64,000 nt of DNA, taken from contig NZ_PVBT01000003.1 of the NCBI RefSeq assembly GCF_002980555.1, forward strand, positions 434,001-498,000, read 5' to 3'. Origin of the DNA: Phyllobacterium myrsinacearum (GTDB lineage: Bacteria > Pseudomonadota > Alphaproteobacteria > Rhizobiales > Rhizobiaceae). Made by a program: the position numbers and the translations under genes. Below are positions 3,786-58,748 of the stretch, one piece after another; the first letter of the stretch is position 1; the number at the start of each line of letters is the position of its first letter. The notes beneath the pieces were generated by a model. That model searched no databases and was not told where the DNA came from. It was given only the letters and a program-made list of their open reading frames with translations.

Positions 3786-5153
3786 ATGGCTGCGTCTACA
3801 CGGGGCATCTGGGGATGGATGCTCTTCGACTGGGCGGCGCAGCCATTCTTCACCGTTGTCACGACCTTTATCTTCGGTCCCTATTTCGTCGCGCGGATGG
3901 CGAGTGATCCCGCCATCGGCCAGGCGGCCTGGGGTTATGGCATTGCCATATCCGGTCTCGTCATTGCCGTGCTGTCGCCCGTCCTCGGGTCGATTGCCGA
4001 TCAGACCGGGGCGCGCAAGCCGTGGATCGGCTTCTTTGCCGTCATCCAGATCATAGCCCTGTCGATGCTGTGGTTCGCGGCGCCAGGCTCCAGCCTGATT
4101 GCTCCTCTGATCTTCTTCTCGCTGGCATCGATTTCTGCGGAATTTTCCATCGTTTTCAACGACTCCATGATGCCGCGGCTGGTGCCGGAAAAGGACATCG
4201 GGCGCATTTCCAACATGGCGTGGGGGCTCGGCTATCTCGGTGGCATGATTGCCCTGATCTTTGTGGTCGCCTTCATGGCGGGGTCGCCGGACACCGGAAA
4301 AACCATGCTGGGATGGCAGCCAATCCTGGGGCTCGATCCCGCGGCGGGCGAGGGTGACCGCGCAACCGGACCGCTGTCAGCGCTGTGGTATCTGGTTTTC
4401 GTGCTGCCGATGTTCCTGTTCACACCTGACAGCGCAAGGGGGCTGCCCATCGGCAAGGCCGTGCGCGGGGGGCTTGCGGAGTTGAAATCCACCATTGGCG
4501 AAGTGCGCCAGCGTCCGGGCATCTTCCGCTTTCTCATTGCCCGCATGATTTACCAGGATGGTGTCAACGCCCTGATCGCGCTTGGCGGGGCATTTGCCGC
4601 GACCATGTTCGGCTGGGCGACGGCGGAGATCGGCATCTACGGCATCATCCTGAACGTCGTTGCGATTTTCGGCTGCCTTGCCGCGAGCTGGCTCGACACG
4701 CGGATCGGCTCGAAGGCCGTGGTGGTAATTTCACTGGTGCTTCTGACCATCGCGACCATCGGCATTGTCTCGACGGGGCCTGGCTATACCCTGTTCGGAT
4801 GGTGGCCGCTGACAGGCGCCGATACGGCCGGGTTGTTCAAGACACCCGCCGAGAAGGCTTTCATTGTGTTCGGGCTGCTCATCGGTGTTGCCTTCGGCCC
4901 GGTGCAGGCGTCGTCGCGCTCCTACATGGCCCGCAGCGTGTCGATCGATGAAGCGGGCCGCTATTTCGGCATCTATGCCCTGTCGGGGCGGGCAACCAGT
5001 TTTCTCGCGCCATTTATGGTTGCCACTGTGACAGCGCTAAGCGGATCGCCACGCCTCGGCATGGCGATGATCATCGTCTTCCTGCTGGCCGGACTGGCTG
5101 TCCTGTTGCGAACACCCTATCCCGCTGCAATTCCGGCAAGGCCTAGTGTCTGA
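3786..5153 (+). CDS. MFS transporter, UMF1/Atg22-like family
   Basis: Polytopic inner-membrane protein of 455 residues with about 12 predicted membrane segments. The N-terminus ([16 protein letters not shown]) is typical of the UMF1/Atg22-like branch of the major facilitator superfamily, whose bacterial substrates are mostly unknown; the yeast relative exports amino acids from the vacuole. A ribosome site (GGGGAAGGAA) ends 5 nt before the ATG at 3786. It follows the glutamate dehydrogenase by 37 bp on the same strand and could be co-transcribed. Its last 11 bases overlap the end of purH, which runs the other way. The substrate cannot be read from the sequence. Confidence 0.85.
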
Positions 5154-44880: not shown

Positions 44881-45600
44881 ATGACCGATCTGTCAGTCGT
44901 AATTCCTGCCTATAATGAATCCGGAAACATCGGCGCCCTTGTCACCGAGATCAATCAGGCCCTCTTGGGCACTGCCAGCTATGAGATACTGATCATCGAT
45001 GACGGCTCGAGCGACGGCTCGGCCGAAGAAGCGCTGAATGCCGGCCGCCACGTTCGCGTGCTGCGGCATGAGAAGCGTACCGGTAAATCCAGGGCGCTGA
45101 TCAGCGGCTTTCAGGCCGCGAGGGGGCAATGGATTGCGACGCTGGACGGTGACGGGCAGAACAACCCGCTGGACCTGGCGCGCCTTTGGCCGCGCATTGC
45201 GCAATCCCAGCCTGTGCTGTTTGCCGGGGTCCGGAAGCGCCGCAATGACGGGGTCGTGAAGCTGCTGACGTCGAAATCCGCCAATTTCATCCGCAGGCGT
45301 CTTCTCAGGGACAATTGCCGGGATGCGGGATGCGGCTTCAAAGTCCTGCCTGCGTCCGTGGCAAGAGGATTGCCCTACTTCGACAACATGCACCGTTTTC
45401 TTCCGGCTCTCTCGATCCGGGCCGGTCTGACCGTCGTCGAAGTCGATGTGGAGGACCGTCCGCGGCTGGCCGGCGTCTCCAAATACGGGTTCTTTGATCG
45501 CGCTGCGGTTGCGTTTCTCGACACTGTCGGTGTTTTCTGGCTTATCCGCCGGTACTCTGATCCGGCAGGGGTAAGCGAGATGAATAACGCTGAAAGCTGA
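44881..45600 (+). CDS. Glycosyltransferase family 2 (dolichol-phosphate mannosyltransferase-like)
   Basis: A 239-residue GT-A fold enzyme. The nucleotide-sugar site shows SVVIPAYNESGNIGALV at the N-terminus, LIIDDGSSDGS near residue 36-46 and the DxD-type LDGDGQNNP near 91-99. The C-terminal part lacks membrane segments, so it is a soluble DPM1-like type that probably moves a sugar to a polyprenyl-phosphate carrier. It is convergent with a GT39-type transferase, which uses such lipid-linked sugars, so the two may act together. Start ATG 44881; the last 59 bp overlap the opposite gene. Confidence 0.85.
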   Translation: MTDLSVVIPAYNESGNIGALVTEINQALLGTASYEILIIDDGSSDGSAEEALNAGRHVRVLRHEKRTGKSRALISGFQAARGQWIATLDGDGQNNPLDLARLWPRIAQSQPVLFAGVRKRRNDGVVKLLTSKSANFIRRRLLRDNCRDAGCGFKVLPASVARGLPYFDNMHRFLPALSIRAGLTVVEVDVEDRPRLAGVSKYGFFDRAAVAFLDTVGVFWLIRRYSDPAGVSEMNNAES

Positions 45601-46987
45601 ACGTCCTTATCTGGCCGTTGAAATTTCTCATTGGGCTGTCGACCCGGGTCATGGGGCCGGTTGCCGTCGCGTCCAGGGGCAGGAGTTCGAGCGCTTCTTT
45701 GTCCGGAGCATCGCCTCCCTCCCAGACAAGGACGATATCATCGGCCTTGCCGTTTGCCGGCGGCCAATGGAGCTGCACGGCGATGTTGGCGGCATCATCC
45801 TGCCGCTTGGACGCCAACCGTGCCGGGGCCGCGTTCTGCGCGCGAATGGCATTGGCAACCGCATCGAATGGTATTGACAGGCGATCGTCACCGAACAGCA
45901 GCACGATAGCGAAGGCAAGGGGCGCCAAGACGTAGAATCCGGCGGATATGATCAGCAGGTTTCGCGCGCCATGCTTTTGCGGGAAGTAAAGCGCCAGCAA
46001 AATGGCGGTCGGCGCCAGAATGGGCGCCATGTAACGCTCCGCCACCGAATGGTAGTCGGCAAAAAAGACAATCAAGCCGAAGGCCGTCAAGCCAAGCACG
46101 ACAGTGCGGAACAGGACTTTCCTGACATCCGTGTCGCCATCCGGAACCGGCTTCGGAGCGTCCTGCAGGCGGCCAATCAGGAAAATCACAAGAGCCGGGC
46201 CTGACCAGAGGAAGGTCGAGATGAAGAGGCTGAGAAGGCCGTCCACTCCAAACCAGGGAATATCAAACGGCTGAAGCATCGGGATCAGATGATTGAGTTT
46301 GGCCATCCGTCCGGCGGTTGCAGCCAAAGGCGCGTTCAACGAGGCCCAGGCCACGGGTGCCATGGCAAGAATGAAAATGCCAAGGGATATCAAGGCGGGC
46401 TTGCAGAAAATCTGGCGGCGAATGGCCCTGTTGAGGGCGCACGCAATCAGGAAGCTGAACAGGAACATGAAGAAGTTGTACTTTGCCAGCCCGCCAATGG
46501 CGGCCCATATGCCAAGCCAGACATAGGCGCTGTATCCCCGTCCCGACCGGATGAGGGCCAAGGCATGGATCGTCCCGATGGATGCGACAATCACCAAAAG
46601 CGTGTGTGCCGTTGTCTGGATCGACATCCAGACAATCTGTGGCAGAAGAGCGGATGCCGCCAAGGCCAACACACCGGCCCGGTCGCCGCCCAGCCGGCGT
46701 GCCGTGTCGAATGAAAGCCAGTGATAGAGGCCGAGCAGGCACAGGCGGACCAGAACCGTGGCAACCAGCCAGTTCCAGCCGGTAAGTTCAAGCGCCACCC
46801 GCACCAGCCAATTGTAAAGCGGCGGATGCGAGTTGCCGTAAATCCAGGAAAAATCAACCAATCCGACGAACTGGGCTTCATCGATGTCGAGAAAGGGCGA
46901 CAGGGCCAGCCTGAGCGCGATCAGGGCCAGCGTATAGCAGAGTATTGCAAGGGGGATTCGCCGGGCGAGATAGGTCCAGTTGATCAT
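45542..46987 (-). CDS. Glycosyltransferase family 39-like membrane protein (PMT_2/ArnT-type)
   Basis: A 481-residue polytopic membrane protein with some ten or more hydrophobic segments and a C-terminal soluble tail of about 110 residues. The first loop DIDEAQFVGLVDFSWIYGNSHPPLYNWLVR carries the acidic pair and HPPLY motif of GT-C transferases that take sugars from polyprenyl phosphate, as ArnT does for lipid A (landmarks DIDEAQ and SHPPLYNW). I start at ATG 46987 (MINWTYLARRIP); 30 further codons are open upstream. The acceptor, perhaps LPS or another envelope glycan, is unknown. Confidence 0.83.
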   Translation of the reverse strand: MINWTYLARRIPLAILCYTLALIALRLALSPFLDIDEAQFVGLVDFSWIYGNSHPPLYNWLVRVALELTGWNWLVATVLVRLCLLGLYHWLSFDTARRLGGDRAGVLALAASALLPQIVWMSIQTTAHTLLVIVASIGTIHALALIRSGRGYSAYVWLGIWAAIGGLAKYNFFMFLFSFLIACALNRAIRRQIFCKPALISLGIFILAMAPVAWASLNAPLAATAGRMAKLNHLIPMLQPFDIPWFGVDGLLSLFISTFLWSGPALVIFLIGRLQDAPKPVPDGDTDVRKVLFRTVVLGLTAFGLIVFFADYHSVAERYMAPILAPTAILLALYFPQKHGARNLLIISAGFYVLAPLAFAIVLLFGDDRLSIPFDAVANAIRAQNAAPARLASKRQDDAANIAVQLHWPPANGKADDIVLVWEGGDAPDKEALELLPLDATATGPMTRVDSPMRNFNGQIRTFSFQRYSSRLPLPDQSTGG

Positions 46988-47130
46988 CGGGCCGTCCAGT
47001 TTCAACGCTGCATGGAATCGAGAGTTGGATGCAACCTGAGCGTCAATTTCACATGTGTCGTATCCCACTACAACCAAGTGCCCGTTGCCGCAATGCTACA
47101 AATTTCCAATGGGGAATCGCGCCAATGAAT

Positions 47131-47432: not shown

Positions 47433-48227
47433 TTATGCCTTCGCCTTGCTGCTTTCCTTGAAGAACAGCGCCTGCGTGATCAGGGCTTTCACCATGTCAG
47501 GGTTGAAGGGCTTGGTGACAAGGAATGTCGGTTCAGGCCGTTCGCCGGTCAGGAGCCGCTCGGGAAACGCCGTAATGAAGATCACGGGAACCGCATCCTG
47601 GCTCAGGATGTTGTTGACCGCATCGATGCCGGAACTGCCATCGGCGAGCTGAATATCGGCAAGAATCATGCTCGGATGTGTTTCTGCGTAGAGTTTGACG
47701 GCCTCGTCGCGGGTACGCGCGATACCGACAACCCGATGACCCAGGCTTTCCACCATGTGTTCAATGTCCATGGCGATCAGCGGCTCATCCTCGATGATCA
47801 TGATATCGGTGGCGATCTGCTTGGAAATGCCGACAGAAGCCTCGTCGAGAAGGGTATAAAGCTCCTGCTCGTCTATATCGAGAATATCGAGGGTTTCAGC
47901 CTGGCTGAAGCCTTCAAGGCTGATGAGAAGGAAGGCCTGGCGCGCGCGGGGGGCGATGGCGGTCAGGTTTGCCGCCGCATGCTTTTCCCAGCCAAATTCC
48001 GATTGCAGCTCAAGCGGGCGGACATTGACCGAATTGAAGTGCTTGATCAGCAGTTTGTAGAGGCTGACGCGGTCAGATGTGGTTTCAGGAAAAAGGGAGA
48101 CATCGCTGATGAGGATTTCGAGCGTCGCGGCTACATAAGCATCGCCTGACGATTGCGACCCGGTAATGGCGCGGGCAAAGCGGCGAAGATAGGGCAGATG
48201 TGGAGCGATCCGAGTGGACAATGACAT
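47433..48227 (-). CDS. phyR: General stress response regulator PhyR (anti-anti-sigma response regulator)
   Basis: A 264-residue protein with the PhyR layout: an N-terminal EcfG-like sigma domain (about 1-135, LPYLRRFARAITGSQSSGDAYV and APRARQAFLLISLEGFSQAE) and a C-terminal receiver (about 141-262). The phospho-accepting Asp191 in MILADIQLADG, the acidic pair in IIEDEPL and Lys239 in LVTKPFN are intact. When phosphorylated, PhyR binds NepR and frees EcfG. ATG 48227 is the conserved start. It is divergent from nepR-ecfG across a 332-bp region with two palindromic elements and a probable EcfG promoter, so its leader would be about 210 nt. Confidence 0.97.
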   Translation of the reverse strand: MSLSTRIAPHLPYLRRFARAITGSQSSGDAYVAATLEILISDVSLFPETTSDRVSLYKLLIKHFNSVNVRPLELQSEFGWEKHAAANLTAIAPRARQAFLLISLEGFSQAETLDILDIDEQELYTLLDEASVGISKQIATDIMIIEDEPLIAMDIEHMVESLGHRVVGIARTRDEAVKLYAETHPSMILADIQLADGSSGIDAVNNILSQDAVPVIFITAFPERLLTGERPEPTFLVTKPFNPDMVKALITQALFFKESSKAKA

Positions 48228-48263
48228 TATGGTGATTTCCCGTTCCCGTTTGGGCATTGAAGA

Positions 48264-48340
48264 CAAGTGGTCCGATTCTGACATTTGCATCGCTTTGATA
48301 CAGACCATTCAGGCAAATGTCAGAATCAAAGGACCACCAG
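48264..48340. repeat. Palindromic element 1 between phyR and nepR
   Basis: Inner arms GATTCTGACATTTGC (48274-48288) and its exact complement (48313-48327) flank a 24-base centre. Outer arms TGGTCC (48268-48273) and GGACCA (48331-48336) also match, but an extra AAA separates inner and outer on the right only. It is a diverged mirror image of the element at 48354-48432. Confidence 0.8.
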
Positions 48341-48559: not shown

Positions 48560-48763
48560 ATGAACGCCAACAAAAGTCTCTCAGACGGCTCCGAAAAGGG
48601 TCGTGTCCGCCGCCGCGACGTCAGAAACGCGGAATCAGAAATCGGTTTGAAGCTGCGTGCGCTCTATGCCTCCGTACAGGAGGAGGAAATCCCGGCGCGT
48701 TTCCTGGACCTTCTGGAAAAGCTCGACGAAGCTGAACGCAACCATGCTCAGTCGTCAAAATAA
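48560..48763 (+). CDS. nepR: Anti-sigma factor NepR
   Basis: A 67-residue protein that holds the sigma factor EcfG inactive until phosphorylated PhyR binds it. The family core IGLKLRALYASVQEEEIPARFLDLLEKLDEAE forms the two conserved helices (landmarks IGLKLRALY and IPARFLDLL); the N-terminus is basic and flexible. I chose ATG 48560; a GTG at 48512 in the same frame would add 16 residues. It precedes ecfG by 11 bp, the usual arrangement. Confidence 0.93.
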   Translation: MNANKSLSDGSEKGRVRRRDVRNAESEIGLKLRALYASVQEEEIPARFLDLLEKLDEAERNHAQSSK

Positions 48764-48774
48764 CAGGCGGTCGA

Positions 48775-49326
48775 ATGGTACATGAATCCCCTGACTTCAA
48801 GAGAAATCTGATTGCGTCCCTGCCGAAGCTGCGCGCATTCGCAGTATCGCTGATCGGCAATCCTGACCGTGCGGATGATCTCGTTCAGGACACGATCATG
48901 AAAGCCTGGGCCAAACAGGATTCATTTGAAGCCGGCACCAACATAAAGGCCTGGCTGTTTACGATCCTGCGCAATGAGTTTTACAGCCAGATGCGCAAGC
49001 GCGGGCGCGAAGTGCAGGATTCGGACGGCATTTTCACCGAACAGCTGTCGGTGCATCCCTCGCAATACGGCTCGCTCGATCTGCAGGATTTCCGCAAGGC
49101 CCTGGAAAAGCTGCCGGACGACCAGCGCGAGGCCATCATTCTCGTCGGTGCGTCCGGGTTTTCCTACGAAGAGGCCGCCGATATCTGTGGATGCGCCGTT
49201 GGAACGATCAAGAGCCGCGTCAGCCGGGCAAGAACGCGATTGCAGGAACTCCTCGATGTCCAGGGCGAGGTCGATTACGGCCCCGACTCGATTGCCACGC
49301 AGGTAACGTCAAACAAATTCGCCTGA
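48775..49326 (+). CDS. ecfG: ECF-type sigma factor EcfG (general stress response)
   Basis: A 183-residue ECF15-type sigma factor. Region 2 (residues ~10-75) has ALVGNPD-like RADDLVQDTIMKAWAKQDSFEAGTNIKAWLFTILRN and region 4 (~105-160) has LPDDQREAIILVGASGFSYEEAADICGCAVGTIKSRVSRAR (landmarks RADDLVQDTIMKAW and GTIKSRVSRAR). It recognises GGAAC-N16/17-CGTT promoters, of which this region has many. It is probably co-transcribed with nepR. The 3' end overlaps a convergent receiver gene by 18 bp. Orthologues are named ecfG, rpoE1, rpoE2 or sigT in different genera. Confidence 0.95.
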   Translation: MVHESPDFKRNLIASLPKLRAFAVSLIGNPDRADDLVQDTIMKAWAKQDSFEAGTNIKAWLFTILRNEFYSQMRKRGREVQDSDGIFTEQLSVHPSQYGSLDLQDFRKALEKLPDDQREAIILVGASGFSYEEAADICGCAVGTIKSRVSRARTRLQELLDVQGEVDYGPDSIATQVTSNKFA

Positions 49327-50660: not shown

Positions 50661-52094
50661 GTGGCAGGAGCGGTGCAGTTGGTGCAGTGGCGTAGAATTT
50701 TGGCGGGTTTTTCGGAGAGACCTGGGCGCGGGCTGGCCATCATCATTTCGCTTGCGCTGATCATCACTGCCGCGATGTCGACGGTCATCCTGACCCGCGG
50801 CTTCAACAATCAAATGGACGATGTCGTCGCCACCTACCGCGTCCGGGAGCAGGCGGATGGTACGCTCGCGCTGCTGAACGAAGCGCATACGAGCCAACGC
50901 GGGTATCTCCTGACGCAAAACCCGGCCTTCCTTGATCTCTACCACGCGGCGGCGTCCCATCTGGCGGAATCGCTGAATACGCTGAACGAGATGACGAGAG
51001 GCAATCCCCGCCAGCAGGCCATCGTCAGCCAAATTCAGGATTTGGCGAAGCAGAAGCAGCAAAAAGTCGAAGCCGCCATATCGATGTCCCTTGCCGGAAA
51101 CAACAGCGACGCTCTGGCTTCTCTCGGTCCTGATTTCGGCATCGGCCAGATGGACGAAATCAAAAAGACCATCAACAGTTTCCTGGGTGAAGAGGACCGC
51201 CGGCTGATTGCGCGCAACATTGCCATGGACAAGTTGCGCTTCTGGCTGACTATCGCCTCGATCTTCTCGCTCGCAGGCGCGCTGATCCTTGCCTATATCC
51301 TTGCCAGCCGCACCAAGCGCTATGTGCGCAAGCTGACGGAAGGCCAATCGACGTTGCTTTCTGAAAAATCGCAGTTGGAAGAGATGGTTCAATTGCGCAC
51401 CGCCGAACTTGAAAAGGCCATGCTGGTCGCCAAGCGGGAGAGGGCACGCGTGGAAACGCTCCTGCAGGATTCCGATCACCGCATCGGCAATTCACTGGCG
51501 ACCGTGTCATCGCTTCTTGGTATCCAGATGCGCGGCGTTTCGTCAGATGAAATCCGGGTGGCTCTCGGTGCCGCCCGTGATCGAATTCAGACGATTTCGT
51601 CGGCGCACCGCCGCCTCCGGCTGGGAAAGGACCATGAAACCGTTCGGGCTGATGAGTATTTGCCGGAGATTATCGCCGACATCAAGGAATCCCACCTTCA
51701 TGACCGGAATATCCGGATCGAAGCGCATTTCGAGCCGATTGATCTGAGCTCCCGGGATGCCACAACCCTTGGTATCATCATCGGCGAGTTGACCATGAAC
51801 GCGATCAAGCACGCCTTTCCGCATAATCGTGCCGGGCTCATTGAAATAAGCCTCCTGCACGATGCCAATGGTGTCATTGCCCTCACCATTGCGGATGATG
51901 GAATTGGTATCCAGAAAAAACTCCACAAGCGGGCATCGGGTCTGGGTTCGATGATCGTCGCGCAGCTCTGTCAGCAATTTGGCGGCGCAGTGGCCTATGC
52001 CGCCAAAGATGGCGGCGGCACGGTCGTAACGGTGACGTTCCCCTCCCTCCAAAGCGCCGCTGCGGCGGAAAATGCGAAGGCGGAAAACGAATGA
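50661..52094 (+). CDS. CHASE3-domain sensor histidine kinase, HisKA_2 type
   Basis: An inner-membrane kinase with two membrane segments (about residues 23-45 and 193-215 from the GTG start) around a periplasmic CHASE3 domain (NEAHTSQRGYLLTQNP), then a linker coiled coil, the HisKA_2 domain with phospho-His in LLQDSDHRIGNSLATV (His273), and an ATPase domain (GELTMNAIKHAFPH, DDGIGI, GLGSMIV). HisKA_2 and HWE kinases are the classes that feed PhyR. I chose GTG 50661, with GAAGAGG before it; ATG 50586 would overlap the Crp gene. With PhyR close by it is a candidate PhyR kinase. Confidence 0.9.
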   Translation: MAGAVQLVQWRRILAGFSERPGRGLAIIISLALIITAAMSTVILTRGFNNQMDDVVATYRVREQADGTLALLNEAHTSQRGYLLTQNPAFLDLYHAAASHLAESLNTLNEMTRGNPRQQAIVSQIQDLAKQKQQKVEAAISMSLAGNNSDALASLGPDFGIGQMDEIKKTINSFLGEEDRRLIARNIAMDKLRFWLTIASIFSLAGALILAYILASRTKRYVRKLTEGQSTLLSEKSQLEEMVQLRTAELEKAMLVAKRERARVETLLQDSDHRIGNSLATVSSLLGIQMRGVSSDEIRVALGAARDRIQTISSAHRRLRLGKDHETVRADEYLPEIIADIKESHLHDRNIRIEAHFEPIDLSSRDATTLGIIIGELTMNAIKHAFPHNRAGLIEISLLHDANGVIALTIADDGIGIQKKLHKRASGLGSMIVAQLCQQFGGAVAYAAKDGGGTVVTVTFPSLQSAAAAENAKAENE

Positions 52095-52101
52095 GCCGCA
52101 G

Positions 52102-52323
52102 TCAGAGTGTTGCCGCCCCGGTTTCCGGCATGTCGGCATTCAGCTGTTCCAGCGCAAGTTCGATGTCGCGCAAATTCCGGGTGAAACCGTCCTCGTTGTC
52201 CATCCCGCCTTCCGTCGCCGCGCGTTGCAATCCCCTGGCTTCGCTGAGCAGGTCGCGGAGTTTTTCGATTTTCGCGGGTCTGTCCAGACTATTGTCCGAT
52301 AGAATGTCCTTCGCTTCACGCAT
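52102..52323 (-). CDS. Small conserved-looking hypothetical protein under an EcfG promoter
   Basis: I do not recognise this family. The 73-residue product is acidic and helical, with MREAKDILSDNSLDRPAKIEKLRDLLSEARGLQ as a likely long helix (landmarks AKIEKLRDLLSEARG and RDIELALEQLNADM). There is no signal or membrane segment. ATG 52323 has a strong GGAGA 6 nt before it. An exact EcfG promoter is at 52380-52356, back-to-back with one for the HWE kinase. It is convergent with the CHASE3 kinase, 7 bp apart. It is likely a small cytoplasmic stress protein or modulator of the neighbouring kinases; that is inference. Confidence 0.75.
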   Translation of the reverse strand: MREAKDILSDNSLDRPAKIEKLRDLLSEARGLQRAATEGGMDNEDGFTRNLRDIELALEQLNADMPETGAATL

Positions 52324-52355
52324 AGACTTCTCCTTTGCATTCTTCACGCAACAGA

Positions 52356-52380
52356 AACGGCGAGGGCTATTAAATGTTCC
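52356..52380 (-). promoter_or_regulatory. EcfG-type promoter for the 73-residue protein
   Basis: Reverse strand GGAAC (52380-52376), 16 bp, CGTT (52359-52356): exact consensus. It lies 33 bp before the start codon. Confidence 0.82.
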
Positions 52381-52386
52381 AGATGG

Positions 52387-52411
52387 GGAACAAAGGGGTA
52401 TGCGTTGCGTT
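52387..52411 (+). promoter_or_regulatory. EcfG-type promoter for the HWE kinase
   Basis: GGAAC (52387-52391), 16 bp, CGTT (52408-52411): exact consensus, 62 bp before the kinase start codon. The two -35 boxes of this divergent pair are only 6 bp apart. Confidence 0.82.
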
Positions 52412-52473
52412 GATAATCGAAGCTGTTTTAACGTTCAGAGTAAGGACGGCTCGATGAGGGGCGTCATGCGACT

Positions 52474-54000
52474 ATGAAGTCAGACCACATTTCAGAAAAC
52501 ATGTCAGAATTTCTGTCGGAACCGGCTCGCCTGGATGCCCTGTCAGCGGTAAGCAATCTTGAAATACACTCGGATGGCGAGCTTCAGGGATTGGCCTCTC
52601 TGGCGTTGTCGTTTTCGAACGCCGATGTTGCGGTGATTGTGGCGGTTGGCGAGACGCAGGGACGGATACTGGCGCAGGCCGGAAACGCGCCGGGGGGAAT
52701 GTCCGATTTCTGGGTATTCGGCGCGGAAGCGCTGGTTCTGCCGGCGGGGGATGTGTTGGTCGTTCCCGATGTGATGGCCGACAAGCGCTTCTCCGGGCAG
52801 GCGGCAGGTTTGGCCGGGAACACTGTGCGGTTTGTTGCGGCCGTGCCCGTCGACATCGGCGGCGCGCGCGTTGCTGCGCTTGTCATCGCCGCGGCAGCGC
52901 CCGGGCCAACGGCAGGAGAACTGCTGCAATCACAGTTGAAACAGGTGGCCAGGCTTGCCGGGTCTTTCCTTAAACTGCAGTGTGATGCGCAAAGCCATGT
53001 TCGGTCCATTGAAACCCTCAACAGGGATGAACTGCGCAACGACATGGCGCTGGAGGTCGGCAATGTCGGCAGCTGGGTCTGGGACCTGAAGACAGGAAAA
53101 TTCACCGGCAACAAGATGGCCTATTCCATGCTCGGCCTGAGCGATGACAAGCCGATAAGCGGCGAAGATGTTTTCCGTGCCATGCATCCGGATGATTTTC
53201 CGCTGATGAAATCGGCATTCACCCGCGCCTTGGCACACGATCAGGACTATGTCGGCGAATTTCGCGCCGCGTCTTCCGGCCAATGGCTGCTGGGGCGCGG
53301 CCGTATTTTCGAGCGGGATGCCGCCGGCAAGCCGCTCGTCGCTGTTGGCGTCAACATCGATATCACCAGCACGCGAAATGCGGCCGAGAAAACCCGCCTG
53401 TTGCTGCGGGAATTGAATCACCGGGTCAAGAATACGCTGGCCATGCTGCAATCGCTGGCGCGGCAGACATTGAACCGGACCTCCGATCCGGCGGAATTCA
53501 TGGAGGCTTTCTCCGGCCGGCTGCGGGCGATCTCCGAAGCGCATACGCTTTTGTCCGATCGTGAATGGAGCGGCATCAGTCTCGTTGACCTGATCACCAA
53601 GCAGGTCGAGCCCTATGCGATCTATGATCCGGCCCAGGTCGTGCTGGAAGGCGAGGACATGATTCTGCCGCCCGATCACGCCTTGGGACTCGGCATCGCC
53701 TTGCACGAACTTGCCACCAATGCGGCCAAGCACGGTGCGCTGTCCTCCGCGCGCGGGAGGGTCCGCGTGTCATGGCAGACGGAAACCGGGCTCGATGAAT
53801 CGCGGGTGGTCATTCACTGGGTGGAATCCGATGGCCCCCGTGTCACGCCTCCTGCCGCCCGCGGGCTTGGAGAACGGCTGATCGAGCGCAGCCTGGACAA
53901 GGTTCTGTCGAGCAGCGTCCGTTTGAGTTATCCCGAAACCGGCATGGAAGTGCTGATTTCGATGCCGATCAAGGAAGGGTCAGCCGCCGTCGTTGGATGA
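52474..54000 (+). CDS. GAF-PAS sensor histidine kinase, HWE type
   Basis: A 508-residue soluble kinase: GAF-like domain (about 20-170), PAS domain (about 190-300, NVGSWVWDLKTGKFTGN, MHPDDFPLMK, VGVNIDIT), then the HWE dimerisation domain with phospho-His316 in LRELNHRVKNTLAMLQSLARQT and an ATPase domain (ALHELATNAAKHGALS, RGLGERLIERSL). Landmarks are LNHRVKNTLAM and HELATNAAKHG. HWE kinases such as LovhK and PhyK act on PhyR in relatives. An exact EcfG promoter precedes it, so the stress response would raise its own kinase level. The start ATG 52474 lacks a clear ribosome site. It overlaps the holin-like gene by 21 bp. Confidence 0.92.
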   Translation: MKSDHISENMSEFLSEPARLDALSAVSNLEIHSDGELQGLASLALSFSNADVAVIVAVGETQGRILAQAGNAPGGMSDFWVFGAEALVLPAGDVLVVPDVMADKRFSGQAAGLAGNTVRFVAAVPVDIGGARVAALVIAAAAPGPTAGELLQSQLKQVARLAGSFLKLQCDAQSHVRSIETLNRDELRNDMALEVGNVGSWVWDLKTGKFTGNKMAYSMLGLSDDKPISGEDVFRAMHPDDFPLMKSAFTRALAHDQDYVGEFRAASSGQWLLGRGRIFERDAAGKPLVAVGVNIDITSTRNAAEKTRLLLRELNHRVKNTLAMLQSLARQTLNRTSDPAEFMEAFSGRLRAISEAHTLLSDREWSGISLVDLITKQVEPYAIYDPAQVVLEGEDMILPPDHALGLGIALHELATNAAKHGALSSARGRVRVSWQTETGLDESRVVIHWVESDGPRVTPPAARGLGERLIERSLDKVLSSSVRLSYPETGMEVLISMPIKEGSAAVVG

Positions 54001-54427: not shown

Positions 54428-54766
54428 TCAACGGCGGGCGATCAGAGCCAGAAGAAATCCTACACCCGCAGCCACGGCAACGGTTGTCAGGGGATTTTCG
54501 CGTACGGTCTCCGTCAGCTGATCCTCAAGCGCCTTGGCCTGAGACCGGATTTCGTCCAGGGCGTCTTCGCCGCGTGCCCTGGCATGTTCAAAGGTCGAGG
54601 ATGCGTTGCTGCTTGCCTCCTTGGCCGAGGTCTTGCCAATCTTGGCGAGTGTCGCCGCAATGTTCGCAATGTCCTCTTTCAAAGCGGCAACCTGCGCTTG
54701 CAGATCCGGGTTGGATTCCGTTGCATCGTCCACGGCTTTGCGAACTTTCGAAGAAACTGACGCCAT
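54428..54766 (-). CDS. DUF883 (ElaB/YqjD/YgaM) family protein
   Basis: A 112-residue protein with a long helical, partly coiled-coil stretch (about 20-85, rich in Ala, Glu and Lys) and a C-terminal membrane anchor (NPLTTVAVAAGVGFLLALIARR). ElaB/YqjD proteins of E. coli attach to the inner membrane by such a tail and bind ribosomes in stationary phase. AAGGAG lies 9 nt before ATG 54766. The exact EcfG promoter at 54832-54808 is directly upstream and should drive this gene and the holin-like gene after it. Confidence 0.88.
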   Translation of the reverse strand: MASVSSKVRKAVDDATESNPDLQAQVAALKEDIANIAATLAKIGKTSAKEASSNASSTFEHARARGEDALDEIRSQAKALEDQLTETVRENPLTTVAVAAGVGFLLALIARR

Positions 54767-54807
54767 TAAAGCAACTCCTTGAGAAATATAAGTTTCATAG
54801 CAATGGA

Positions 54808-54832
54808 AACGCCCGGCATGCGGTTTGGTTCC
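54808..54832 (-). promoter_or_regulatory. EcfG-type promoter for the DUF883/holin-like pair
   Basis: Reverse strand GGAAC (54832-54828), 16 bp, CGTT (54811-54808): exact consensus, 41 bp before the DUF883 start codon. Confidence 0.82.
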
Positions 54833-56326: not shown

Positions 56327-56362
56327 ATGAATTTGAAGAAGCGGACTTGCCATGCCTTCTGA
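56327..56362 (+). CDS. Candidate 11-codon leader ORF before the AI-2E family gene
   Basis: ATG 56327 is preceded at 6-nt spacing by a strong GGAGAGGG. The frame ends at TGA 56360, 11 bases inside the permease gene, which starts at 56352 with only a weak ribosome site. Such an overlap would let ribosomes finishing the leader start the permease. The peptide itself (MNLKKRTCHAF) is not recognisable. Confidence 0.35.
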   Translation: MNLKKRTCHAF

Positions 56363-58304
56363 GACTGTGAGGGAGGTGTCGCCGCGCGCCGTCGAGCGCG
56401 TCAGTCAAAAATCAATTTATGCGCCTGCGCCCGCCGATGACGGGCGAATGCAGTTCCCGCCCATCATTGTGGCCATTGCGGTCGTCGCAGCGCTTTACTT
56501 TGCCCGGGATATTTTTGTTCCGCTCGCGCTTGCGCTGCTTTTGACCTTTGCCTTGTCGCCGCTGGTCACGCAGCTTCACCGCTTTGGTGTGCCGAAGATT
56601 CTGTCGGTTGTCAGCGTGGTGCTCACCGCCTTTATCGCCATATTCCTGTTTGCCACCATTGTGGTCGGTCAGTTGACGGTTCTGGCGCAGAACCTGCCGA
56701 GCTATCAGTACAACATTGAGGCCAAGATCAGGACGATCAAGGATGCACAGTCCGGCAACGGTATTTTTGACCGTGGCGCGCGCATGTTCAAACGGCTCAA
56801 CGAAGAAATCGGCCGTTCCGATGAAGTGGAGCGGTTTCCCGCACGAGACGGCGCAGAGGCGCAGGCGCAACACCCTCCAGAAAACGTCGCGCCGGACAAT
56901 CAGGCAGGAAGCCCGTCACCCTTGGGCAAAGACAATCCGGACAAGCCTGTTCCGGTTGAAATCCGCAATCCGGCGCCTGATCCCCTGCAAGTGCTGCAAA
57001 CCGTTGCCGCGCCTTTAATCCAGCCGTTGGCAACGATTGGCATTGTCGTGGTGTTTGTCATCTTCATGCTGCTGCGGCGCGAAGATCTGCGCGACCGTTT
57101 CATCCGGCTTGTCGGCGCCAGCGATATTCACCGCACCACCACGGCCTTGCACGATGCGGGAAAGCGGGTCGGGCAGTACCTCCTGATGCAGCTGGTGATC
57201 AATATCTGCTTTGGTGTTCCGATCGGCATCGGTCTTTGGCTGATTGGTATTCCCAACCCGATGCTGTGGGGCCTTCTGGCCATTGCCCTGCGTTTTGTCC
57301 CCTATATCGGACCATTCATTGCCGCATCTTTCCCGCTCATGCTGGCGCTGGCGGTCGATCCCGGCTGGATGCTGTTGCTGTGGACCGCGGCCTTGTTCAT
57401 TGTTCTCGAACTGATCAGCAACAATGTCATGGAGCCGGTGCTTTATGGCTCGAGGACGGGCCTCTCGCCGGTTGCCATCCTGCTTGCGGCCATTGTCTGG
57501 ACCTGGATATGGGGGCCCATCGGGCTGCTGCTTTCCACGCCGCTGACGGTCTGCCTTGTCGTGCTCGGGCGTCACGTGCCGCGCTTCGAATTCCTGGATG
57601 TGCTGCTCGGCAACGAACCCGTCTTGTCGCCGCAGCAACAGCTTTACCAGCGGCTGCTGTCGGGCGACCCTGATGAAGCGACGGAAAAAGCGGAAGACTA
57701 TCTGCAGTCGTCGGCAATCGCTGACTACTACGCATCGGTTGCTGTTCCTGCCCTGTCTCTCGCCGAGCATGACCGGGGGCGCGGTGTGCTGGATGCTCCG
57801 CGTCGCAGCCGGGTGGCGCAGAGCATGATGCGCCTTGTGGAAAATCTCTCGGAACATCAGGACGTGGAAGGGGAGGACGGTGAAGATCAGGTTGAACCGG
57901 CAAAGAGCAAGCGCAGCAAGAGCGAAGGGCCAAGGACGATCATTTCCGCGGGCGGGCGGGGCGATCTCGACGACGCGGCGGCGGTGATCATTGGCGATAT
58001 CCTGGAGCGGCGTGACTTCGAGGTTCGCGACATCACGCATGACGAACTGGAAGCTGTGAATATCGCCAAGCTCGATCTCGCGGATGCGGATGCGATCTAT
58101 ATCAGCTATCTCAACATGTCCTCGGTGGCCCATGCGCGCTATCTCGTGCGCCGCATTCGCAGGCGGAATGCGCGCATCAAGATCATCGTCGGATTCTGGG
58201 CCGACGATGCGGGCGGCATCGATGGTGAAAAGATCGTTGGATCAAGCCGGAACTGTCATTTCGCCTCAACCGTCGAGGCGGCGATCAAACATGTCGCCGG
58301 GTGA
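56352..58304 (+). CDS. AI-2E family permease with extra C-terminal domain
   Basis: A 650-residue inner-membrane protein. Residues ~30-430 form the AI-2E (YdiK/TqsA) transporter domain: hydrophobic segments at about 35-85 and 90-115, a long polar periplasmic or cytoplasmic insert with an acidic, proline-rich part (about 165-210), then five further segments, including FGVPIGIGLWLIGIPNPMLWG and EPVLYGSRTGLSPVAILLAA. Residues ~445-650 are soluble: a helical linker, then an alpha/beta segment (GPRTIISAGGRGDLDDAAAVIIGDILERRDFEVRDI, VGFWADDAGG) that looks like a Rossmann or B12-binding-type fold. Landmarks are VLYGSRTGLSP and IIVGFWADDAGG. Substrate unknown. Confidence 0.85.
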   Translation: MPSETVREVSPRAVERVSQKSIYAPAPADDGRMQFPPIIVAIAVVAALYFARDIFVPLALALLLTFALSPLVTQLHRFGVPKILSVVSVVLTAFIAIFLFATIVVGQLTVLAQNLPSYQYNIEAKIRTIKDAQSGNGIFDRGARMFKRLNEEIGRSDEVERFPARDGAEAQAQHPPENVAPDNQAGSPSPLGKDNPDKPVPVEIRNPAPDPLQVLQTVAAPLIQPLATIGIVVVFVIFMLLRREDLRDRFIRLVGASDIHRTTTALHDAGKRVGQYLLMQLVINICFGVPIGIGLWLIGIPNPMLWGLLAIALRFVPYIGPFIAASFPLMLALAVDPGWMLLLWTAALFIVLELISNNVMEPVLYGSRTGLSPVAILLAAIVWTWIWGPIGLLLSTPLTVCLVVLGRHVPRFEFLDVLLGNEPVLSPQQQLYQRLLSGDPDEATEKAEDYLQSSAIADYYASVAVPALSLAEHDRGRGVLDAPRRSRVAQSMMRLVENLSEHQDVEGEDGEDQVEPAKSKRSKSEGPRTIISAGGRGDLDDAAAVIIGDILERRDFEVRDITHDELEAVNIAKLDLADADAIYISYLNMSSVAHARYLVRRIRRRNARIKIIVGFWADDAGGIDGEKIVGSSRNCHFASTVEAAIKHVAG

Positions 58305-58339
58305 CATCTGCGCCATCCGGGAAAGCTTTTCCATTGGCG

Positions 58340-58364
58340 GGAACCAAGACGACTCTGTCACGTT
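58340..58364 (+). promoter_or_regulatory. EcfG-type promoter with no gene directly after it
   Basis: GGAAC (58340-58344), 16 bp, CGTT (58361-58364): exact consensus. Transcription would begin near 58371 and meet a strong terminator ending at 58437. Confidence 0.75.
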
Positions 58365-58370
58365 TCACAA

Positions 58371-58437
58371 AAGCTGGCCACACGTTGACCGGCACGTTCA
58401 GAACCCGGTGCCTGTTCCCCCGTGGGCACCGGGTTTT
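58371..58437 (+). ncRNA. Predicted EcfG-dependent small RNA, about 67 nt
   Basis: Inferred from an exact EcfG promoter (58340-58364) and an intrinsic terminator (58402-58437) with no coding frame between. The predicted RNA has a 5' hairpin (GCTGG at 58373-58377 with CCGGC at 58389-58393, loop of 11) and the terminator hairpin, whose 12-base loop holds five consecutive C. In outline it resembles GsrN of Caulobacter, a stress-sigma-dependent RNA with an exposed C-rich loop, but I cannot show homology. The start is estimated from the promoter and could shift by a few bases. Confidence 0.5.
58402..58437 (+). terminator. Strong intrinsic terminator of the predicted small RNA
   Basis: An 11-bp perfect stem, AACCCGGTGCC (58402-58412) and GGCACCGGGTT (58425-58435), with a C-rich 12-base loop, followed by TT within a TTTT run. 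It is 98 bp after the AI-2E gene and could also end that message. Confidence 0.85.
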
Positions 58438-58496
58438 CGCTTGGATTCACAAAATTATCCTTTTAATTCAATATTTTGAATTTATCCGGTTTCACG

Positions 58497-58521
58497 GGAA
58501 CCGTAGATGTCATCGGCCGTT
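58497..58521 (+). promoter_or_regulatory. EcfG-type promoter for csbD
   Basis: GGAAC (58497-58501), 16 bp, CGTT (58518-58521): exact consensus, 35 bp before the CsbD start codon. Confidence 0.85.
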
Positions 58522-58556
58522 TACCTCGGGTGAGTGAACTTTGAAGGAGTGTACCG

Positions 58557-58748
58557 ATGGGTAGCACAGGTGACAAGATTTCCGGGCTCGCCAACAAGGC
58601 GGCGGGCAATATCAAGCAGGCTGCCGGCAAGGCAACGGGTTCCCGGAAGCTGCAGGCTGAAGGCAAGGCCCAGGAACTGAAGGGCGATGCCCAGCAGATG
58701 AAGGGCAAGGCCAAGGATGCGGTGAAGAAGGTGGTTGACCGCGCCTGA
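58557..58748 (+). CDS. CsbD family stress protein
   Basis: A 63-residue hydrophilic protein rich in Lys, Ala, Gly and Gln with the CsbD repeat pattern (DKISGLANKAAGNIKQAAGKATGS, then LQAEGKAQELKGDAQQMKGKAKDAV). Landmarks are AAGNIKQAAGKATG and AEGKAQELKGDAQQ. CsbD proteins are among the most strongly induced general stress proteins in Bacillus and in alphaproteobacteria, with no known molecular role. GAAGGAG lies 8 nt before ATG 58557. The exact EcfG promoter upstream and its own terminator (58773-58802) make it a single-gene unit. Confidence 0.92.
   Translation: MGSTGDKISGLANKAAGNIKQAAGKATGSRKLQAEGKAQELKGDAQQMKGKAKDAVKKVVDRA

Follow-up and report, generated by a model that had tools for sequence, protein, structure and literature searches.

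Does the short interval between an AI-2E family transporter gene and csbD in Phyllobacterium myrsinacearum hold a small RNA gene of the general stress response, and if so, how does it relate to small RNAs described from other alphaproteobacteria? An earlier note on this DNA, made from the letters alone, had proposed a stress-sigma-dependent small RNA here and had pointed to GsrN of Caulobacter, without claiming homology. To our knowledge, which messages the alphaproteobacterial stress response places under RNA control is largely an open matter outside Caulobacter, and in the literature collection searched no paper mentions both Phyllobacterium and EcfG. The following features belong to the window, by which we mean the whole stretch of 64,000 nucleotides analysed.

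47433..48308, minus strand, phyR (Pfam PhyR_sigma2, PhyR_sigma-like and Response_reg)
48563..48763, plus strand, nepR (Pfam NepR, 56.3 bits)
48781..49326, plus strand, ecfG, general stress sigma factor (Pfam Sigma70_r2 and r4_2; the name rests on its place directly after nepR)
56352..58304, plus strand, AI-2E family transporter gene (Pfam AI-2E_transport), upstream of the RNA in 21/21 genomes
58340..58364, plus strand, EcfG-type promoter GGAAC-N16-CGTT (GGAAC at 58340-58344, 16 nt, CGTT at 58361-58364)
58371..58437, plus strand, predicted small RNA of about 67 nt (fold, blastn, covariance model R1)
58373..58393, plus strand, 5' hairpin, variable in sequence, its structure kept via compensatory changes
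58400..58437, plus strand, 3' hairpin, terminator-like (fold, covariation)
58413..58424, plus strand, 3' loop UGUUCCCCCGUG with C5 at 58417-58421, likely the seed for pairing
58497..58521, plus strand, second EcfG-type box, exact, the presumed csbD promoter
58557..58748, plus strand, csbD (Pfam CsbD, 66.9 bits)

The exact GGAAC-N16-CGTT promoter of the earlier note can be read directly in the sequence, and the predicted RNA start, 58371, is placed 7 nt after CGTT. The 67-nt unit folds into two hairpins, as had been claimed, at -32.3 kcal/mol (z -2.83; 1/200 shuffles equally good), and the 3' hairpin by itself (42 nt) gives z -4.28, with none of 200 shuffles equally good. The five C claimed for the terminator loop are present. 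The accompanying claim of a perfect 11-bp terminator about 40 bp past the start holds for the stem, in which AACCCGGTGCC (58402-58412) pairs perfectly with GGCACCGGGTT (58425-58435), but the stem begins about 31 nt past the predicted start and the U-tail is modest: UUUUCGCU in the window, and 2-6 T per 8 nt over the 21 Phyllobacterium genomes. A simple terminator scan of the window did not list the hairpin at 58400-58437. The U-tail is the weakest element of the unit, and the 3' end of the RNA may differ from that predicted, or transcription may continue towards csbD.

The statement that no coding frame is present needs rewording, as mechanical ORFs (58301-58537 and 58084-58479) do overlap the unit, and in this genome four of the six frames lack a stop. 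Over the 21 species, however, the unit changes in length by 1-3 nt, which is out of frame, and, with frames numbered from the RNA start, every one of the six meets a stop codon in at least three species; for these two reasons we conclude that the unit is non-coding. The predicted RNA measures 65-68 nt in all 21 genomes. No Rfam family matched the window at gathering score, and a relaxed search (E up to 10) at 58200-58600 returned three matches far under their cut-offs, which were judged chance. A search of a plasmid collection gave no match.

Searches with blastn found the unit in 21/21 Phyllobacterium genomes, plus one short match among 100 relatives (L022, in G067), which was dropped, having only the loop stretch in common. 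A pattern for the 3' hairpin retrieved 16 records from GTDB 220 (one genome per species), 14 of them Phyllobacterium and two entered as 'Rhizobiales bacterium'. The covariance model R1 gave one strong match in each of the 21 Phyllobacterium genomes (E 8.6e-11 to 4.9e-16), as is expected of a model built from those same 21 sequences. Directly upstream of the RNA an exact EcfG box occurs in every genome, with N16 in 15 and N17 in 6.

The pattern of conservation within these sequences is uneven. Mean pairwise identity is 97-100% in the box columns and 45.7% in the promoter spacer; it is 74-85% in the 5' stem, 43% in the 5' loop and 48% in the linker, then 92-95% in the 3' stem, 98.4% in the 3' loop and 34.5% in the flank just past the stem. 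The 3' loop is identical in 20/21 genomes and reads UGUGCCCCCCGUG in the remaining one; termination does not require so constant a loop, which points to a partner. A run of four C occurs in the 5' hairpin of one genome only (1/21; L009). Base pairs are kept in 98.4% of cells against 95.4% in shuffles (18 distinct rows), and 16 cells show double changes against 5.7 in shuffles (0/500 that high), under controls that take no account of kinship between species; the consensus structure is that of RNAalifold from the same alignment, so that the slide control favours it. By hairpin, 95.8% of cells are paired in the 5' hairpin, with changes on both sides in 2/8 pairs, and 100% in the 3' hairpin, with double changes in 3/13 pairs. 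Two other counts do not stand out: five pairs carry a double change, a figure reached by 30/500 shuffles, and there are 15 further pair types, reached by 146/500.

The unit also has a fixed place. In 21/21 genomes nepR precedes it on the same strand, at a distance of 7.36-9.77 kb. Downstream, csbD follows on the same strand in 20/21 (no match at 1e-5 in G020), and between RNA and csbD stands the second exact box, again in 20/21 (in G010 it is not exact). Exact EcfG boxes (N16 or N17) number six in the window as a whole, where 100 shuffles averaged 0.91 and never gave six, and all six fall between 47.3 and 58.6 kb, around phyR-nepR-ecfG. The proposal of a stress-sigma-dependent small RNA is thus strongly supported by comparison: presence in 21/21 genomes, an exact EcfG box, covarying stems, a near-invariant C-rich loop and linkage to nepR. 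We regard it as very probable that a real, genus-wide, EcfG-linked small RNA gene lies here.

Other observations concern the same neighbourhood. At 52356-52411 two divergent exact EcfG boxes stand 6 bp apart within a mechanical ORF (52091-52477, no Pfam match), and close pairs of this kind are also seen in L024, L025 and L031. On the minus strand a DUF883-like gene (54428-54832) is preceded by an exact EcfG box and is probably a further stress-response gene. The C-terminal stretch of the AI-2E protein resembles a B12-binding domain, at a score under the Pfam cut-off (29.8 vs 32.1 bits).

Small RNAs near this stress locus have been described in other genera. ReC64 of Rhizobium etli has an EcfG promoter and lies near phyR-nepR-ecfG, behind phyR and the kinase gene tcrY (PMC3892343, PMC2881028, PMC4167512). 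According to PMC3892343 it is EcfG1-dependent, with a mapped start and a length of 88 nt by Northern blot; PMC4167512 describes over-expression in salt shock and predicts SigA and RpoH motifs, whereas PMC3892343 shows EcfG dependence. We compared 16 regions around nepR (312,715 bases) that represent 13 other genera, of which ten belong to the same family and three to further families in the order. NepR had been matched in 20 genomes outside the genus; 13 of these were the source of the regions, three of the 13 supplying two each. Three regions, L117 (G029), L119 (G023) and L113 (G022), show an EcfG box followed by a predicted RNA of 109-133 nt with three hairpins, at least four consecutive C in all three loops, and C5-6 in the terminator-like loop. 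These RNAs lie beyond phyR and an HWE kinase gene. By their position L117 and L119 may be ReC64, although the lengths differ (88 vs 109-133 nt). By blastn the L117 RNA (L117:12657-12789) has matches in 36/394 family genomes, covering 11/109 genera, and none in eight sampled Phyllobacterium genomes. Rfam gave no match at the three-hairpin RNA in L129 or at three other loci of its kind. A covariance model of the three-hairpin RNA, R2, from which L113 was excluded and which does not match L113, matches L125 (E 7.7e-10). L122, which has C-rich loops behind an EcfG box, was not counted as a relative, since its fold barely improves on shuffled sequence (z -0.56; 52/200 shuffles equally good).

Like ReC64, the Phyllobacterium RNA has an EcfG box and lies near phyR-nepR-ecfG, and like the RNAs of L113, L117 and L119 it carries a C-run in a terminator-like loop. 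Unlike ReC64, as placed in the cited accounts beyond phyR and a kinase gene, it sits on the ecfG side; the next large ORF on the phyR side of the window (45542-47077) resembles a mannosyltransferase gene, not a kinase gene. Where the three-hairpin RNAs have three C-loops, the Phyllobacterium unit has two hairpins and a single C-loop.

Applied beyond the genus, R1 gave matches in 33 genomes out of 386 from the rest of the family (E up to 0.1, best 2.2e-4); from the rest of the order, 11 out of 396 genomes matched (E up to 0.01, best 8.0e-5). Such weak matches were read where a locus had been extracted, and the 33 read (L061-L083 and L245-L254, L061 being a second match in a Phyllobacterium genome) were rejected as homologues, as none is preceded by an exact EcfG box in the 90 nt before it; in L075 there is a degenerate box. 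Among L063, L066, L067, L069, L076, L079, L245 and L248, Rfam identified the matches in L066 and L079 as ar14 and gave no family at the matched site in the others. At L069:1150-1580, in another genus, an EcfG box stands upstream of a DUF2171 gene with two C-loop hairpins in its 3' region, the last of which contains the same loop stretch, CCUGUUCCCCCG, as Phyllobacterium; this is a possible 3'UTR-derived RNA with the same seed, found post hoc via a weak model match. Another family shows the Phyllobacterium order at L128:11300-11519: an EcfG box, a hairpin with a C6 loop and a strong GC hairpin stand just ahead of a second EcfG box and a csbD-like gene (identified by eye).

The relation to GsrN is a different matter. 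As described in PMC5869019, GsrN is about 100 nt long and has six C in its 5' loop; it is processed to a stable 5' form, the full-length RNA being stabilised by Hfq, and it base-pairs with katG, which it activates, its C-rich loop meeting a G-rich message. Its BLASTn matches are confined, in that account, to Caulobacteraceae, and candidates elsewhere were named by position, promoter and partly transcription. The Phyllobacterium RNA resembles the GsrN so described in its stress-sigma promoter, its exposed C-run and its 3' terminator-type hairpin, and its distance from nepR recalls the predicted relatives of GsrN, which typically lie near the stress locus. The described features nevertheless set it apart, and membership is not supported: we do not class the unit as GsrN because its conserved C5 is in the 3' hairpin (the 5' loop being variable), because it is predicted at 65-68 nt, and because katG (catalase-peroxidase, TIGR00198) was found in only 2/21 Phyllobacterium genomes, the window's own not among them. 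Our best guess is an analogy of function, a C-rich loop under a stress sigma factor.

Could the hairpins belong to a neighbouring gene instead? A long csbD leader starting from this promoter, with the hairpins as a leader element or partial terminator and two tandem stress promoters serving csbD, would agree with the strand and near-constant presence of csbD and with the weak U-tail; we think it improbable, given the exact box that separates hairpin from csbD in 20/21 genomes and the unconserved sequence directly past the stem. Still harder to credit is that the hairpin does no more than terminate AI-2E transcription, next to a promoter arisen by chance. It does share the strand of the AI-2E gene and lies about 100 bp past its stop codon, and that gene is placed alike in all 21 genomes, but the box is exact in every one of them at nearly fixed spacing, a second covarying hairpin is present, and the loop is conserved at least as well as the stem, where a plain terminator needs no fixed loop.

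A closer competitor concerns origin: the unit could be a Phyllobacterium descendant of GsrN/ReC64 that moved across ecfG and was cut from three C-loop hairpins to two with one C-loop. Promoter class and neighbourhood are shared, the terminator-like loop has C5-6 as in L113, L117 and L119, and the longer RNA is without a blastn match in the sampled Phyllobacterium genomes. Because the best match of R1 in the 16 regions falls on the last two hairpins of the L117 RNA (24.3 bits, E 0.0066), we grant shared descent with the L117-type RNA some probability. That match, however, begins 65 nt past the L117 box, and the L119 and L113 RNAs are both missed by R1; R2 in turn misses the Phyllobacterium unit, since up to E 1 it matches nothing in the window and its best match in the window's own genome (E 0.29) lies elsewhere, and the unit and the longer RNAs stand on different sides of the stress locus. 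Matches of R2 in 16/21 Phyllobacterium genomes (E up to 1, 13-24 bits, best 3.1e-4) were rejected, the five with loci lacking an EcfG-like box within 90 nt upstream. On this evidence we consider descent unlikely. The reading that we prefer, and hold to be probable, is that 58371-58437 encodes a small RNA that acts in trans in the general stress response of Phyllobacterium, pairing by its 3' loop, specific to the genus and working like GsrN/ReC64 as their minimal counterpart.

An association between C-rich loops and EcfG boxes supports a common mode of action with RNAs of the GsrN/ReC64 type. The window and the 16 regions together hold 121 terminator-like hairpins; a C5 loop occurs in four, all just behind an EcfG box, and apart from the window's own these belong to RNAs placed as ReC64 is described. 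Seven of the 121 begin 10-150 nt behind an exact box, and the C5 loop is found in 4/7 of these vs 0/114 others (p 4e-6), one of the four cases not being independent, as the window was chosen for its C-loop; without the window's own hairpin the counts are 3/6 vs 0/114 (p 7e-5). Loops with four or more C number 6/121. When the 135 nt following each box were considered, a loop with C4 or more was found behind 7/82 exact boxes vs 68/2550 random windows (p 0.008), and two or more such loops behind 4/82 vs 2/2550 (p 1e-5), the random windows in both tests being unmatched for intergenic position. With its box, its non-coding nature and its C-run loop, the Phyllobacterium RNA fits the functional class of EcfG-controlled small RNAs with C-rich loops.

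The RNA unit, its conservation, promoter box, non-coding nature and structure are established by sequence comparison; from them we infer its transcription, EcfG dependence, 3' end, loop base-pairing, direction of regulation and targets. Under stress, PhyR would free EcfG from NepR, and the freed EcfG would transcribe the RNA from 58340-58364. The transcript would fold into two hairpins, the 5' one free in sequence and the 3' one terminator-like; the loop of the latter, UGUUCCCCCGUG, would base-pair with G-rich stretches (core GGGGGAA) at or near the ribosome sites of several messages and so alter their translation, repression being the more likely outcome. That the RNA acts through this loop seems to us somewhat better than an even proposition. 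The pattern GGGGGAA-N2-14-ATG occurs at 84 sites in the window's own genome, against 19 for the reversed pattern; these sites are leads only, as purine-rich ribosome sites alone could explain the excess. The window itself yields six rows of 7-nt loop matches before possible starts. One ORF, 3786-5153 (455 aa), has AGGGGAA before its start and CACGGGG (3799) just inside, both of them short loop complements and likely due to chance.

Elements of this scheme have parallels in other small RNAs, which we offer as analogies. RpoE2 motifs are reported in PMC3616915 upstream of 23 small RNAs in Sinorhizobium meliloti, with array evidence in eight intergenic regions, and Bsr6 of Brucella is described in PMC12772402 as needing the general stress sigma factor RpoE1, with an RpoE1 box in its promoter and its function unknown; both are like the Phyllobacterium RNA, by description, in their stress-sigma promoters. 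The hairpins of ar14/NfeR1 are of free sequence, and three of them show CCUCCUCCC, a conserved C-rich motif directed against ribosome sites, which the redundant loops block (PMC10746234). The manner of presenting a conserved C-rich motif is shared, whereas the promoter of ar14/NfeR1 is another and Phyllobacterium has a single conserved C-loop; for ar14 (Rfam RF02344) the window gave no match at gathering score, and 58200-58600 gave none with E raised to 10. For a terminator loop as seed, LhrC of Listeria is a precedent: it is stress-induced, and a UCCC motif in its terminator loop aids pairing with the ribosome site (PMC4132741), although, as described there, it belongs to another phylum, answers to another regulator and has three redundant sites.

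We also put forward, at somewhat less than even confidence, a tentative picture in which the stress loci of the Rhizobiaceae would carry a fast-changing class of small RNAs driven by EcfG. What stays constant in them would be a C-run displayed by the terminator-like loop, the end of the RNA thus doubling as its targeting seed. Phyllobacterium may have the smallest form, 67 nt with a single seed, replacing ReC64/GsrN and acting on other targets now that katG is mostly gone. An RNA of this size with one near-invariant seed, in a genus where katG is so rare, would offer a clean test of the role of the C-rich loop.
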